Below are positions 27,723-35,776 of a stretch of DNA of 64,000 bases, piece after piece. The DNA lies in contig CALVRR010000007.1 in NCBI GenBank assembly GCA_944358705.1, positions 1-64,000 of the forward strand, given 5' to 3'. The position numbers were made by a program, and so were the translations under genes. Each line of letters starts with the position of its first letter. The stretch's first letter is position 1. The DNA is from an uncultured Bacilli bacterium. GTDB taxonomy: Bacteria; Bacillota_I; Bacilli_A; RF39; UBA660. The notes under the pieces are model-generated. The model was given only the letters and a program-made list of their open reading frames with translations. It had not been told where the DNA came from and did no database searches.

Positions 27723-29360
27723 CTATTTCTTTAACTTTTCTCTTTCAAAAGCAATAACACTTTTATCATATCTTTCATATAATGGTGAAATATCCTTCTT
27801 TATAGAAACCGTAGAAATTCTTTCATATTTCCATTGAAAGTTATAATTTCCTAAATAATTTTCTACCTTTTCACAAGAAAAAGGCAAATACGGTTTTAAT
27901 AAAGTATTAATATTATAAATAATATTTACACAGTTAAACAAAATATGATTGCACTCAGCAGTATCTGTTTTAGCAATAACCCAGGGCTGTTTCTCATCAA
28001 AATATTTATTAGCAAAACTGATAAAATCAAAGATTTGTTGAATTCCATCTTTTACATTTCCACAATCAATAGCTAAGCCAACATCCTCAAACAATAACTT
28101 CAACTTTTGTTCAATATCGTTATCAATAACAGATTTATTTAGTTTTCCATCAAAAGATTTATTAATAAATGCCAAAGTTCGATTAATAAAATTTCCCCAC
28201 TTACCTAAAAGTTCTCCATTAATAGAATGAATAAAATCATCCCAGGTAAAATTAAAATCTCTTTTTTCTGGATTATTTATTAAAAAATAATATCGAATAG
28301 CATCCGCAGGATATCGATTTAACAAATCTCTAACTGATATATAATTTCCCTTACTTTTAGATAATTTCTCTCCCTCTATAGTAATATATTCATCCGAAAC
28401 TATCTTATCTGGTAATTTATAATCTTCTTTGGTTCCTAACAAAAGTGCTGGAAAAACAACCGTATGAAAAGGAATATTATCTTTCGCATGTACTAAATAA
28501 ATTTTATTCTCTCGATTCTTCTTCCAAAAATCTTCCCAGTTAAGATTGTGCTCTTCACAATATTTTTTACTAGCAGTGACATATCCCCAAACATTTTCAA
28601 ACCATCCATAAATTTTCTTATCCTCATACCCCTGGATAGGAATATCAATTCCCCAATTCAAACTACGAGAAGCACATCGATCAGGAATACCTTCCTCTAA
28701 ATATCTTTCCGTAAATAAAACCGCATTTTCTCTCCACTGATTTTTACGAAAAGAGACAAGTTCTTTTAATTCTTTTTGAAATTTAGATAAGGCAAAATAC
28801 AAATTTTTTGTTTGTTTAATACTCGTTGGATTACCGCAAATAGCACATTTCGTTTCTTTAACCTCATGAATTTCTAAAAGACTACCACACTTCTCACACT
28901 CATCACCTTTAATATTCGCTCCACATCTCGGACAAACACCAAGAATATAACGATCCGCTAAAAACAATTGACAATGACTACAATAAAGTTGTTCTTCTGT
29001 TTTCTCATAAAGATAACCATAATCATAATATTTTTTAAACTGTTTTTTTACAAATTCCTTATGATAAGAATCATCCGTTCGATTATATAAATCAAAACTA
29101 AATCCTAAATCCTTAAAGTCTTTGGAAAAATTTTCATGACAAGTATCTACAATTTCCTTAGCTGTTTTCTTTTCTTGCAATGCTTTAACATCAATTGGAG
29201 TCCCATGACAATCACTTCCAGATACCAAAATCACACAATTTCCTTTTAATCGATGATATCTAGCAATAACATCACCAGGTAAACTACTGGCAGCATGACC
29301 TATATGTAAATCTCCATTCGCAAAAGGCCAACTAATTCCTATTAATATATTCATTTTCAT
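27723..29360 (-). CDS. metG: methionyl-tRNA synthetase
   Basis: Class I aminoacyl-tRNA synthetase charging tRNA-Met. 545 aa: catalytic fold with SWPFANGDLHIGHAASSLPG (HIGH motif), zinc-binding CP domain (four Cys pairs such as CSHC, CPRC, CEKC, CAIC), KLSKSKGNYIS (KMSKS loop) and the anticodon-binding helical domain with WGNFINRTL. The C-terminal EMAP/Trbp111 domain of many Firmicute MetG proteins is missing, so this is the short form. Expression is controlled by the T-box just upstream. Confidence 0.96.
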   Translation of the reverse strand: MKMNILIGISWPFANGDLHIGHAASSLPGDVIARYHRLKGNCVILVSGSDCHGTPIDVKALQEKKTAKEIVDTCHENFSKDFKDLGFSFDLYNRTDDSYHKEFVKKQFKKYYDYGYLYEKTEEQLYCSHCQLFLADRYILGVCPRCGANIKGDECEKCGSLLEIHEVKETKCAICGNPTSIKQTKNLYFALSKFQKELKELVSFRKNQWRENAVLFTERYLEEGIPDRCASRSLNWGIDIPIQGYEDKKIYGWFENVWGYVTASKKYCEEHNLNWEDFWKKNRENKIYLVHAKDNIPFHTVVFPALLLGTKEDYKLPDKIVSDEYITIEGEKLSKSKGNYISVRDLLNRYPADAIRYYFLINNPEKRDFNFTWDDFIHSINGELLGKWGNFINRTLAFINKSFDGKLNKSVIDNDIEQKLKLLFEDVGLAIDCGNVKDGIQQIFDFISFANKYFDEKQPWVIAKTDTAECNHILFNCVNIIYNINTLLKPYLPFSCEKVENYLGNYNFQWKYERISTVSIKKDISPLYERYDKSVIAFEREKLKK

Positions 29361-29379: not shown

Positions 29380-29653
29380 AACCTCTTAGGAAATCATTCC
29401 TAAGAGGTGAATATATCACGTTACCACTCTTAATTCATTAATACATTACTGCATTAATCTCATAAACCTACTTATGTCTTAGCATAGTTATAGGTTTGTG
29501 CTATAACAGGCACACCTGTAATGACTTACTTAGTTTCAGCCAATCACCCTTGAGGGCCATGTTCGAAAAATCATTACATCCTCATTTTCACCAAACAGAG
29601 TTCTCTTTAATGCTTGTATTTTTCTACTTCTTCCTCGCACTGGTTTTAATAAT
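29380..29653 (-). ncRNA. T-box riboswitch, methionine-specific (metG leader)
   Basis: Minus-strand leader of about 270 nt. T-box sequence AAGAGTGGTAACGTG (29417-29431), terminator CCTCTTAGGAA-TGAT-TTCCTAAGAGG plus T run (29382-29407), and a Stem I region with the ATG specifier in GAACATGG (29558-29560). Uncharged tRNA-Met should bind and stabilise the antiterminator, letting transcription into metG. Confidence 0.93.
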
Positions 29654-29691: not shown

Positions 29692-30936
29692 TTAAACATC
29701 TTCAAAATGAACTTTCAAAAAAACTTTTTTCCCTTTTTGTAAAACTAACGAATTATCCTTTAAATCCTTATCTGTAACAAACTGTTCAACAGACTTTACT
29801 TTTTCCTGATTAATAGAAACCCCATTTTGTTCTATTAATCTTTTCGCTTCAGATTTAGAAGATACCAAGTTAACCTCAACTAATAAATCAACAACACGAA
29901 TATTCAAGTGTTTTTTAGAAACAGAAACAGATGGCATATTATCTGAACATTTCTTATTACCGAACAACTCTTCTGCAGTTTCTCTAGCTTTCATAGCCTC
30001 TTCTTCACCATGAACCAATTTCGTAACTTCAAAAGCTAATAACTTCTTAGCTTCTCTTATATCTTTTTTACATAAGTCTTTAATATCTGAGATTTCCATT
30101 CTAGTAAAGAAAGATAAACTTCTCTCTACATCTTCATCAAAGGAATTTATCCATGCTTGATAAAAATCAAAAGGTGTAGTTTTATCTCTAGATACCCATA
30201 AAGTACCTGAAGCCGTCTTACCCATCTTTTCTCCATCGGCTTTGATAAGTAATGGACAAGTCCATCCGAATAAAGAATCAATTTTCTTACCCTCACTAAA
30301 TCCAATTTTACGAGAAAGATCAGCTCCAGCCAAAATATTTCCCCATTGATCAGATCCTCCAATCTGTAACCTACAACCAAATTCCTTATTTAAATGAACA
30401 AAATCATAAGCTTGCATTAACATATAACCCATCTCTAAAAAAGTTAATCCCCCATTTTCTAATCTCTTTTTATAACAATCCGCAGATAACATATTATTCA
30501 CATTAAAATGTACACCAATATCTCTCATAAAATCTACATAAGTTTTATCACAAATCCAATCTGCATTATCTACAATAACGGCAGGATTCTCTCCATCTGT
30601 TCTAACAAATCGTTTAACCAATTCTTTTACTTCCTCTTTATTATGAGCAACCTCCTCTTTAGAAAGCATCTTTCTCATATCACTTTTTCCCGTTGGATCT
30701 CCAATTAATGCCGTTGCTCCACCGATTAAAATAATTCCATGATGACAAAAATCTTGTAACCATCGAAACATAGTTAATGCAAAAAAATGCCCTATATGTA
30801 AACTATCCGCCGTAGGATCAATTCCCAAATAAAAAGTCATAGGTTCACCATTAACTAAATCCATAATTTCCTTCTCTTGTGTTAAATCTTTTACATATCC
30901 TCTTTCCATAAGAATATCAAATAATTTCTTTTCCAT
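29692..30936 (-). CDS. tyrS: tyrosyl-tRNA synthetase
   Basis: Class I synthetase, TyrS1 type, 414 aa. HIGH-type motif HIGHFFAL near residue 46, tyrosine-pocket QAYDF-VHL and GGSDQWGNI, KMSKS-type KMGKTASG, and a C-terminal S4 domain (about 345-410) with VVDLLVEVNLVSSKSEAKRL. SD TTAGGAGGAAT precedes ATG 30936. Controlled by a T-box and, unusually, overlapped at its start by a tyrosine-rich leader ORF. Confidence 0.96.
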   Translation of the reverse strand: MEKKLFDILMERGYVKDLTQEKEIMDLVNGEPMTFYLGIDPTADSLHIGHFFALTMFRWLQDFCHHGIILIGGATALIGDPTGKSDMRKMLSKEEVAHNKEEVKELVKRFVRTDGENPAVIVDNADWICDKTYVDFMRDIGVHFNVNNMLSADCYKKRLENGGLTFLEMGYMLMQAYDFVHLNKEFGCRLQIGGSDQWGNILAGADLSRKIGFSEGKKIDSLFGWTCPLLIKADGEKMGKTASGTLWVSRDKTTPFDFYQAWINSFDEDVERSLSFFTRMEISDIKDLCKKDIREAKKLLAFEVTKLVHGEEEAMKARETAEELFGNKKCSDNMPSVSVSKKHLNIRVVDLLVEVNLVSSKSEAKRLIEQNGVSINQEKVKSVEQFVTDKDLKDNSLVLQKGKKVFLKVHFEDV

Positions 30937-31018
30937 ATTTTTTTATTCCTCCTAAGTAATTTGTATAGTTAATTAAATTACAATCATCAAAGTAATAATA
31001 GTAATAGTCACTATCCAT
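30917..31018 (-). CDS. tyrosine-rich leader peptide overlapping the tyrS start
   Basis: 33 codons from ATG 31018 with a very strong SD (AGGAGGTGG, 31021-31030) to TGA 30917-30919. The peptide begins MDSDYYYYYFDDC: five Tyr codons in a row (TAT TAC TAT TAT TAC), eight Tyr in 33 residues. It lies between the T-box terminator and tyrS. The tyrS SD is within its codons (TTA GGA GGA) and its stop lies about 17 bases inside tyrS in another frame. A ribosome stalled on Tyr codons would leave the tyrS SD free, while a moving one would cover it. Leader-peptide control is inference; the ORF itself is seen directly. Confidence 0.7.
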   Translation of the reverse strand: MDSDYYYYYFDDCNLINYTNYLGGIKKYGKEII

Positions 31019-31040
31019 ACAAACCACCTCCTCAAAATAA

Positions 31041-31250
31041 AAAAAAGAACAAGCATCCAAAAGGACGACTTGCTCGTGGTACCACCTTTATTTGTAATAA
31101 TAGTTATTACCTCTTACTGATAACGGATACAATCCGATTAAAATCATCATCTGTAATTCATTATTTTAATTTTACTTGTTTCCACCAACCACAAGTTCTC
31201 TATAAAACATTATAAAATAACTACTTCGAATGAATCGCTTTTTAATTAAC
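31041..31250 (-). ncRNA. T-box riboswitch, tyrosine-specific (tyrS leader)
   Basis: Minus-strand leader. T-box AAAGGTGGTACCACGAG (about 31073-31089), terminator GAGCAAGTCGTCC-TTTT-GGATGCTTGTTC with a long T run (31041-31075), Stem I with AGAGAAC and GGTTGGTGG, and the specifier TAC (31153-31155) in GAATTACAG. Uncharged tRNA-Tyr should promote read-through to the leader ORF and tyrS. Confidence 0.94.
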
Positions 31251-31257
31251 TGGCTTA

Positions 31258-31286
31258 ATTATACTACATTTTATAGAAAATATCAA
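31258..31286 (-). promoter_or_regulatory. promoter of the tyrS T-box
   Basis: Minus strand TTGATA (31281-31286), 17-base spacer, TATAAT (31258-31263). Divergent from the cytidine deaminase promoter a few bases away. Confidence 0.8.
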
Positions 31287-31350: not shown

Positions 31351-31749
31351 ATGAATATAGAAAAAGAAATGTTTCATAAAGCATTAAATTTTTTAAACGA
31401 AAGATATGGAGAAAATAAAGCCGGTGGTGTAGCTGTATTAAGAATCGAAACTGGAGAATATTTAACTTCAGTATGGGATGAAGAAAGAAATTCTAGTGCC
31501 TATTTATGTGCAGAAACTGGAGCAATATGTGAAGCACACAAATTAAATAAAAAAGTTACTCATTCATTATGCATATGTAGACAGGAAGATAATCAGCCAT
31601 ATGAAATATTATCCCCATGTGGAATATGTCAAGAAAGATTATATTACTGGGGAAAAGATGTAAAATGCGCTATATCAACAAAAGATAATAGTATTGTTTT
31701 TAAAACGTTAGAAGAATTGCAACCATATTACTGGTTAGATAAAAAATAA
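31351..31749 (+). CDS. cytidine deaminase / blasticidin-S-deaminase-like protein
   Basis: Zinc-dependent nucleoside deaminase fold, 132 aa. Zinc motif 1 CAETGAICEAHKL carries the catalytic Glu; motif 2 PCGICQERL supplies the other two Cys ligands. The GAICEAHK form is closer to blasticidin-S-deaminase-like proteins than to classical Cdd, so the natural substrate may be cytidine or a related cytosine compound. AAAGGAAATATT precedes ATG 31351. Monocistronic, with the next gene having its own promoter. Confidence 0.85.
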   Translation: MNIEKEMFHKALNFLNERYGENKAGGVAVLRIETGEYLTSVWDEERNSSAYLCAETGAICEAHKLNKKVTHSLCICRQEDNQPYEILSPCGICQERLYYWGKDVKCAISTKDNSIVFKTLEELQPYYWLDKK

Positions 31750-34252: not shown

Positions 34253-35776
34253 ATGAAAAAAAATAAAAAGAAAATAATTATTATTAGTCTAGTAGTAATA
34301 CTTATTATTGCAGTAGCAGTTGCCATATTTTTATTTATGACAATGAATAACAAAGAAGAAAAAGAAATAAAAACAAAACCAGAGGAAAAAAAGTCAGCAT
34401 ATAGAATCTCTGGAAACGAATTACAAGACTTTGATTTATACTTTTTACAATTAGAAAATGAAAAAGTAAATAAACTATATAGTCCTCTATCAATAAAATA
34501 TGCTTTAGAAATGCTTAAAGAAGGTGCAAAAGAAAATTCAAAAAGTCAAATTGAAAATATAATTGGGGACTATGAAGCCAAAACATATTCAAATAATGAA
34601 CATATGTCATTTGCAAATGCTATGTTTATTCAAAACGCATACAAAGATGCAATAAAAGAAGAATATACAAACACTTTAAAAAGTAAATACAACGCAGAAA
34701 TAATTTATGATTCTTTTGAAAATGTAGATAATTTAAATACCTGGGTCAGTAACAAAACCTTTAACTTAATCAATGATTTATTTGATAACGTATCTGGCCA
34801 AAGCTTTATCCTAGTCAATGCTCTAGCAATCGATATGGAATGGGAAAAACCAATACAAGCAACAGCAAAAAACTATAGAGATATGTATAGTGTAAATTAT
34901 GCCCATGAAAATTTTAATTCCTATATTTCTCCAATCGATGGAGATAATTATAGTTCCGTAAAATTTAATGATAATATAGAAGCAAAAGCCGTAGAAATAG
35001 GAGCAGCCATAAATAACTATGATATCGTAAATGATTTAGGAGAAGAAAACATCCGGAAAACCGTAGGTGCAGAATATGAAAAATGGTTAAAAGAAGGTGG
35101 TTGTGGAAATGATCTTGATACAGCAACTTATCTAGATAATTATATAAAAGAATTAGACTCAAACTATAAAAAAGTAGATTCTTCAACAGATTTCTTATTC
35201 TATGATGATGAAAACATAAAAGCTTTTGCAAAAGATTTAAAAGAATATGATAACACCACATTACAATATGTTGGTATTATGCCAAAAAAAGAAAGCCTTG
35301 ATAGCTATATCAAAGAAACAAATGCCAAAGAAATAAATAAAGTAATTAATAATTTAAAAGAAATAAAAAGTGAAAATTTTAAAGAAGGTGTAGTAACCAA
35401 AATAACAGGTTTTATTCCCCTATTTAAATTCGATTACGAATTAAAACTAATGAAAGCTTTAAAACAACTAGGAATTACAGATGTATTTAATATCAACAAA
35501 TCGAATTTATCTGGAATTGCAGAAAATGGTCCAGTGGCTATTAACAAAGTAACTCATAAAGCAAACATCGAATTTTCAAACGAAGGTATTAAGGCCGCTG
35601 CCGCAACACAAATGGGCGGACTAGGATCTGCAAGTTGTGAATTTGAATACTTATATGATGTACCAGTAGAAACGATAGACTTAACTTTTGATAATCCATA
35701 TTTATTTCTAATTCGAGATAAAAATACTGGAGAAGTCTGGTTCACAGGTACTGTCTATAACCCTACAACAAAATAA
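34253..35776 (+). CDS. membrane-anchored serpin (serine protease inhibitor)
   Basis: 507 aa. Lys-rich N-terminus and one transmembrane helix (about 9-33) place the domain outside the cell. Serpin features: SPLSIKYALEMLKEGAKENS, FANAMFIQ, NALAIDMEWEKP, and near the C-terminus the hinge EGIKAAAAT (444-452), a reactive loop with LGSAS, then LTFDNPYLFLIRD. The hinge is of the inhibitory type (small residues P12-P9). By loop length P1 falls on Ser or Ala, which suggests elastase-like targets. It is about 120 residues longer than usual because of an insert around 215-330. Likely guards against host or microbial proteases. Confidence 0.9.
   Translation: MKKNKKKIIIISLVVILIIAVAVAIFLFMTMNNKEEKEIKTKPEEKKSAYRISGNELQDFDLYFLQLENEKVNKLYSPLSIKYALEMLKEGAKENSKSQIENIIGDYEAKTYSNNEHMSFANAMFIQNAYKDAIKEEYTNTLKSKYNAEIIYDSFENVDNLNTWVSNKTFNLINDLFDNVSGQSFILVNALAIDMEWEKPIQATAKNYRDMYSVNYAHENFNSYISPIDGDNYSSVKFNDNIEAKAVEIGAAINNYDIVNDLGEENIRKTVGAEYEKWLKEGGCGNDLDTATYLDNYIKELDSNYKKVDSSTDFLFYDDENIKAFAKDLKEYDNTTLQYVGIMPKKESLDSYIKETNAKEINKVINNLKEIKSENFKEGVVTKITGFIPLFKFDYELKLMKALKQLGITDVFNINKSNLSGIAENGPVAINKVTHKANIEFSNEGIKAAAATQMGGLGSASCEFEYLYDVPVETIDLTFDNPYLFLIRDKNTGEVWFTGTVYNPTTK

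Follow-up and report, generated by a model that had tools for sequence, protein, structure and literature searches.

The tyrosyl-tRNA synthetase gene (tyrS) in the 64-kb stretch of DNA analysed here, hereafter the window, is preceded by a tyrosine T-box riboswitch and, between the T-box terminator and the gene, by a conserved short ORF that contains five consecutive Tyr codons. With a probability of about 0.55, we read this arrangement as tandem sensing of uncharged tRNA-Tyr, in transcription and again in translation, as in the Bacillus subtilis rtpA operon, here placed on a synthetase gene.

The Tyr leader ORF between the T-box and tyrS

The features of the region are as follows, in 5' to 3' order.

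31258..31286 (-), promoter-like element TTGATA-17-TATAAT, 5' of the T-box, read directly
31058..31243 (-), Tyr T-box riboswitch (Rfam RF00230), with specifier position GAAUUACA, antiterminator GGTGGTACC and terminator stem
31034..31050 (-), U-tract of the terminator, GUUCUUUUUUUUAUUUU, the predicted partner, after read-through, of the spacer between the tyrS Shine-Dalgarno sequence (SD) and ATG (fold z -6.7)
31024..31032 (-), leader SD AGGAGGTGG, near-perfect, of which AGGAGGTG is invariant in relatives
30954..31029 (-), conserved 31-bp hairpin, with the leader SD, ATG and Tyr codons in its 5' arm and a 3' arm that ends at the tyrS SD
30917..31018 (-), 33-codon Tyr leader ORF MDSDYYYYYFDDCNLINYTNYLGGIKKYGKEII, beyond the T-box terminator
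30992..31006 (-), run of five Tyr codons, TAT TAC TAT TAT TAC (codons 5-9), read directly and unique in the window
30948..30953 (-), tyrS SD AGGAGG, within the leader ORF
29692..30936 (-), tyrS, tyrosyl-tRNA synthetase, 414 aa (NCBIfam TIGR00234, 415 bits)

The promoter-like element, by direct reading of the minus strand, has its -35 hexamer at 31286-31281 and its -10 hexamer at 31263-31258. The T-box named in the original prediction was recovered at 31243-31058 by the RF00230 covariance model (101.5 bits; gathering score 93), and both the T-box motif and a terminator are present. Uncharged tRNA lets transcription pass the terminator of such an element. The specifier codon, read by eye against a Phe T-box (GAAUUUCA), suits the downstream gene: it is GAAUUACA in the window and in the relatives, the DAHP synthase locus included, while that of L156 is GAAAUACA.

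Beyond the terminator, the strong SD that had been predicted lies at 31032-31024 and is followed, after 5 nt, by the leader ATG at 31018-31016; the TGA is at 30919-30917. Direct reading bore out an ORF of 33 codons with eight Tyr, five of them consecutive. The ORF also spans the SD and the ATG of tyrS (start at 30936) in a different frame, as had been proposed, and it ends inside the gene after 17 sense bases, or 20 counting the stop codon. Codons 18 and 21 are Tyr as well, and a ribosome that stalled at either would cover the tyrS SD, which speaks against the reading adopted here. A six-frame search of the window found no stretch of at least five Tyr other than that of the leader, and Tyr makes up 4.8% of the residues in window ORFs of at least 100 aa.

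A similar layout is known from the rtpLP/rtpA (anti-TRAP, at) operon of B. subtilis, in which transcription and translation both respond to uncharged tRNA-Trp (PMC11255114, PMC4027176). In that operon, as in the window, the T-box terminator is followed by a short ORF that has its own SD, contains cognate codons in a row and lies near the regulated start. The at operon combines Trp with a regulator gene, whereas here Tyr (and Val, see below) is combined with synthetase or DAHP synthase genes. In addition, the rtpLP leader stops just before the SD, whereas the leader described here usually overlaps the start of the gene and forms one long hairpin; the comparison is one of layout. Two-step sensing of one uncharged tRNA is firmly known from this one operon, in Bacillus. 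The original prediction was right to call such control of a synthetase gene unusual, although one precedent exists. The tyrS and tyrZ T-box leaders of Firmicutes (RF00230) share the standard Tyr T-box and terminator, but the known examples run straight from the terminator to the synthetase. A review of T-boxes does not mention leader peptides (PMC7583486), and nothing comparable was found in the open-access literature on T-boxes with a leader peptide and tyrS. The combination of a T-box with a leader peptide is known in kind; what looks new is the choice of amino acids, synthetases as the targets, the overlap joined to a hairpin, and the spread as a cassette.

Conservation and spread of the leader

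Relatives were gathered by a tyrS search of genome contigs and by whole-genome searches. These yielded some 25 distinct leader copies, SD-led, located after a T-box and scattered over genera, and because that many relatives have the ORF it is, on this comparison, well beyond chance. All tyrS genes of the window type (80-100% identical) with upstream sequence have the leader. The original prediction had called for an alignment of tyrS leaders, and this showed the SD and the Tyr run (at least three Tyr in codons 5-9 or near equivalent) to be kept across many genera; an absent or frameshifted ORF, which it had named as contrary evidence, was not encountered in relatives sharing this tyrS. In L016 and L066 the three or more Tyr codons lie close by rather than within codons 5-9.

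The leader region is 96% conserved, equal to the T-box core, against approximately 70-85% in the adjoining spacers. Three indels within codons 1-17 (L016, L059, L157) all comprise whole codons, whereas 1-nt indels are present in the spacer before tyrS. In L018 and L066, whose tyrS is 65-67% identical, the SD and MDSDYYY or MDSDYDY are retained, and the rest, including the hairpin, is lost. In the Tyr T-box loci L018/L072 and L066, tyrS shares its frame with the SD-ATG-DSDYYY start; these loci thus have two starts and possibly an N-terminal extension of 18 residues. The leader start is ATA instead of ATG in L061 and L157, which retain the SD, the frame and the hairpin pairing.

Three kinds of genes are preceded by the Tyr leader: tyrS of the window type, a divergent tyrS (G014, G186, G470), and the gene for DAHP synthase (G510), the enzyme that opens the pathway to aromatic amino acids. 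T-boxes stand upstream of the leader in all three settings, and the GAAUUACA specifier region is the same where read. Found before these three kinds of genes with the same specifier region, the T-box and leader thus behave together like a transferable module for tyrosine genes. Meanwhile, the leader DNA was found in about 13 of the approximately 150 genera searched in the host's family. Since the leader is scattered over these genera yet has no match in four genomes of the same genus, its patchy distribution points to horizontal spread. Viral contigs gave no match to the leader and none to tyrS. The class-wide match outside the host's family, L237, lacks a T-box and was set aside as a chance match. 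Contamination is disfavoured as an explanation, since the contig seems to be properly placed: a flanking gene at 34253-35776 (+), judged by eye to encode a serpin-like secreted protein, shows 82% DNA identity with the same-genus genome G174.

Relative to the downstream ATG, the leader stops at +20 in most tyrS loci and at -6, +28 and +46 in frame variants; it stops at +8 to +34 before the divergent tyrS and at -25 before DAHP synthase. Every leader ends on the downstream SD or ATG or at most about 10 nt upstream, and with stops from -25 to +46 around the ATG a leader ribosome at or near its stop would cover the downstream SD, as in the at operon.

Proposed mode of action and other explanations

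In the first step of the proposed mechanism, one that is established for T-boxes, uncharged tRNA-Tyr would allow transcription to continue past the T-box terminator. The read-through transcript would then bear the strongly initiated Tyr-rich ORF across the tyrS start. When Tyr-tRNA is short, ribosomes would stall at codons 5-9 and hold the long hairpin open, and a stall at these codons would keep the tyrS SD and ATG, which lie about 35-60 nt further on, accessible to initiating ribosomes. When charging is restored, ribosomes would traverse the leader, sweep over the tyrS start and terminate on it, the hairpin would re-form behind them, and translation of tyrS would drop. The analysis shows the layout, its conservation, the hairpin, the occurrence before three gene types and the enrichment of cognate residues in other leaders; we infer that the leader is translated, that ribosomes stall in it and that this affects tyrS. 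Because the end of the leader lies on or near the downstream SD, a ribosome completing the leader must occupy the next start, and one held at the Tyr run would leave that start clear.

The original prediction had the stalled ribosome free the tyrS SD. This part did not stand: when the region was folded with a simulated stalled ribosome, stall-driven unmasking was not seen (mean unpaired probability 0.57 in the free RNA and 0.48-0.57 with the stalled ribosome), and it was rejected as showing no clear gain of accessibility in the model. The translational layer itself is still favoured by the persistence of the SD, the frame and the Tyr run across many genera, and by related Val leaders with the anatomy of translational attenuation. 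Given the anatomy, start occlusion by ribosomes that complete the leader suits tyrS better than unmasking of the SD. The erm and cat translational attenuators resemble the present case in that a stall in the leader would open a hairpin at the next start, and the Val leaders fit them well. They differ in that the signal here would be a lack of charged tRNA instead of an antibiotic, and in that the tyrS SD is not firmly masked; the erm-type behaviour, an SD masked when the leader is empty and freed by the stall, is not seen at tyrS. The proteobacterial attenuators (trpL, hisL and the pheST leader) also have a regulatory codon run in a leader ORF, but they choose between terminator and antiterminator in transcription, whereas the hairpin here is followed by GGAATAAAAAAATATGG with no U-run, that is, no terminator of the trp/his type stands after the leader.

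The conserved element might instead be the RNA hairpin itself, acting as an mRNA stabiliser, an RNase site or a regulator of the tyrS start, in which case the Tyr ORF would be a by-product of the AU-rich 5' arm and not a sensor; we consider this unlikely. The segment that starts with the leader SD and ends immediately upstream of the tyrS SD does fold as one long hairpin of 31 bp (z -6.7). Pairing was kept at 15 of the 28 paired-site changes against 9.8 expected (P 0.004). A covariation test is itself weak on so highly conserved an alignment. Since codons 2-17 of close relatives show 4 synonymous and 12 nonsynonymous changes where 3.9 and 11.4 are expected, selection on the peptide appears not to be measurable among them, and several Tyr codons have become Cys through changes that preserve the hairpin pairing. 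The RNA fold rather than the amino-acid sequence thus seems to explain the leader substitutions among close relatives. Because the synonymous and nonsynonymous changes in these codons stand in a neutral ratio, what recent evolution appears to have guarded is the fold together with the start signal, more than the precise peptide; the ATA starts of L061 and L157 also favour a hairpin without a sensor. However, the SD motif AGGAGGTG is invariant although its predicted pairing partners vary, the SD and MDSDYYY persist in L018 and L066, where the hairpin is lost, and indels inside the ORF are codon-sized only. A chance run of five Tyr after a Tyr T-box would be very unlikely at 4.8% Tyr, and leaders with cognate codons are also seen for Val, Thr, Ser and Gly. 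The leader region contains both coding and structural signals.

The leader might also be a translational coupler: its ribosomes would open the hairpin, start again on tyrS and so increase tyrS translation, with no sensing of Tyr. The strong leader SD, the 20-nt overlap and the location of both starts in one folded region agree with this, and in L018 and L066, where the starts are in frame, leader ribosomes would yield an extended TyrRS. We nevertheless regard coupling as quite improbable: it leaves unexplained both the Tyr codons after a Tyr T-box and the cognate codons in other leaders, the stop positions are widely spread around the downstream ATG, and tyrS retains a strong SD of its own. 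Highly improbable, in our view, is a functionless relic, the 5' end of a CYTH-domain gene from the other Tyr operon of the family. In that operon, which is arranged as T-box, CYTH-domain gene and tyrS, the start of the CYTH gene (SD GGAGGTG, then M(D/H)TEYEV) resembles the GGAGGTG and MDSDYYY/MDSDYDY of the leaders, and the leader may, as a speculation, descend from the 5' end of a CYTH-type gene. But its conservation above the spacers and its pair-keeping substitutions imply that the leader is under selection now, and such ancestry is compatible with present function.

Leaders of other T-box genes and further observations

The T-boxes of eight genomes that carry the cassette, and of G000, the genome of the window itself, were surveyed for SD-led mini-ORFs, and most of them have none. 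A valS leader of 12 codons, M(K/R)(F/Y)(I/V)(F/L)(K/Q)G(D/H)YVRV, was found after the T-box in G000 (contig 33) and, by the survey and a pattern search, in four other genomes (loci L326, L327, L328, L241 and L264). The five peptides are MRFIFQGDYVRV, MRFIFKGDYVRV, MKFIFKGDYVRV, MKYILKGDYVRV and MKYVLKGHYVRV. They are always of 12 codons, with the 3' end GTA CGA GTC followed by TAA, TAG or TGA, and they precede two types of ValRS. The first set of pheS and valS relatives examined showed no such leader ORFs. The bases that come next after the Val codons are predicted to base-pair with the SD or the start of valS, and placing a model ribosome at the final Val codon released the SD or start in four of the five leaders: the unpaired probability rose from 0.01 to 0.68 and from 0.15 to 0.63 at the SD, and from 0.11 to 0.59 and from 0.09 to 0.71 at the start, with the fifth leader unchanged. 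In these models the valS leader has the features of a translational attenuator more plainly than the Tyr leader, and it speaks for a genuine second layer in the host's family.

SD-led ORFs with at least one cognate residue each, often encoded by rare codons (ACC, TCG), also follow Thr-, Ser- and Gly-type T-boxes (L305, L310, L317, L320, L321, L168). The leader of a Thr-family T-box gene, whose identity was judged by eye, is MTKKESETKYSQK, with ACC for both Thr; the serS leaders are MKKF(C/S)FNNLIFSKVSC and MNEFWKDIVSVRQ, and the glyS leader is MDYRMLIFILSITYSGDYRGN. In a small sample of 11 leaders, partly gathered by hand and including one Val leader from a targeted pattern search, the cognate residue made up a fraction of 0.150 against 0.076 with shuffled labels (P 6e-5); P was 7e-4 without Tyr and 0.0014 with the Val leaders collapsed to one of their conserved form. 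On contig 10 of G000 (L166, L176), a Phe T-box precedes a second pheS and comes with an SD-led ORF with a TTG start, LKNDFNSDFRLITLNR, that is not kept in relatives.

Tandem sensing may then be a general architecture in this family of uncultured, gut-type Bacilli, in which a T-box and a cognate-codon leader move as cassettes for Tyr, Val and probably Thr, Ser and Gly, in front of non-homologous genes or divergent genes for the same amino acid, and act through occlusion of the start (Tyr) or masking of the start (Val). We put this tentatively, at somewhat short of even odds. If true, two-step sensing would extend to synthetase genes, to at least two amino acids, to transferable cassettes and to two modes of start control, turning an exception into a design principle, and the natural variants could be used to ask what a cell gains from checking again once the T-box has been passed.

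Several further features were seen in the window and the genomes. Directly downstream of tyrS lies a second, weaker T-box (29400-29649, minus strand; 88.8 bits), followed by a MetRS-like gene (27723-29360, minus strand), and two T-box synthetase genes thereby adjoin. A gene at 31351-31749 (+), by eye cytidine/blasticidin-S-deaminase-like, diverges from the T-box promoter. Contig 22 of the genome carries a second tyrS-like gene, 37.6% identical to that of the window. G000 has, over its contigs 6, 7, 10, 22 and 33, a second and divergent version of tyrS, of pheS and of valS, with a T-box in front of each, and the second-copy types of pheS and valS are also patchy in the host's family. Finally, tyrS genes of the Clostridia/Christensenella type without a T-box (L098-L100, L102, L104, L106, L107, L113, L114, L118) have a conserved TACGCCC...GGGCGT inverted repeat upstream. 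In many of them the repeat falls within a short ORF that has an SD (MKRFIFRTYAHLGVKT, for example), and it is possibly another control element of tyrS.
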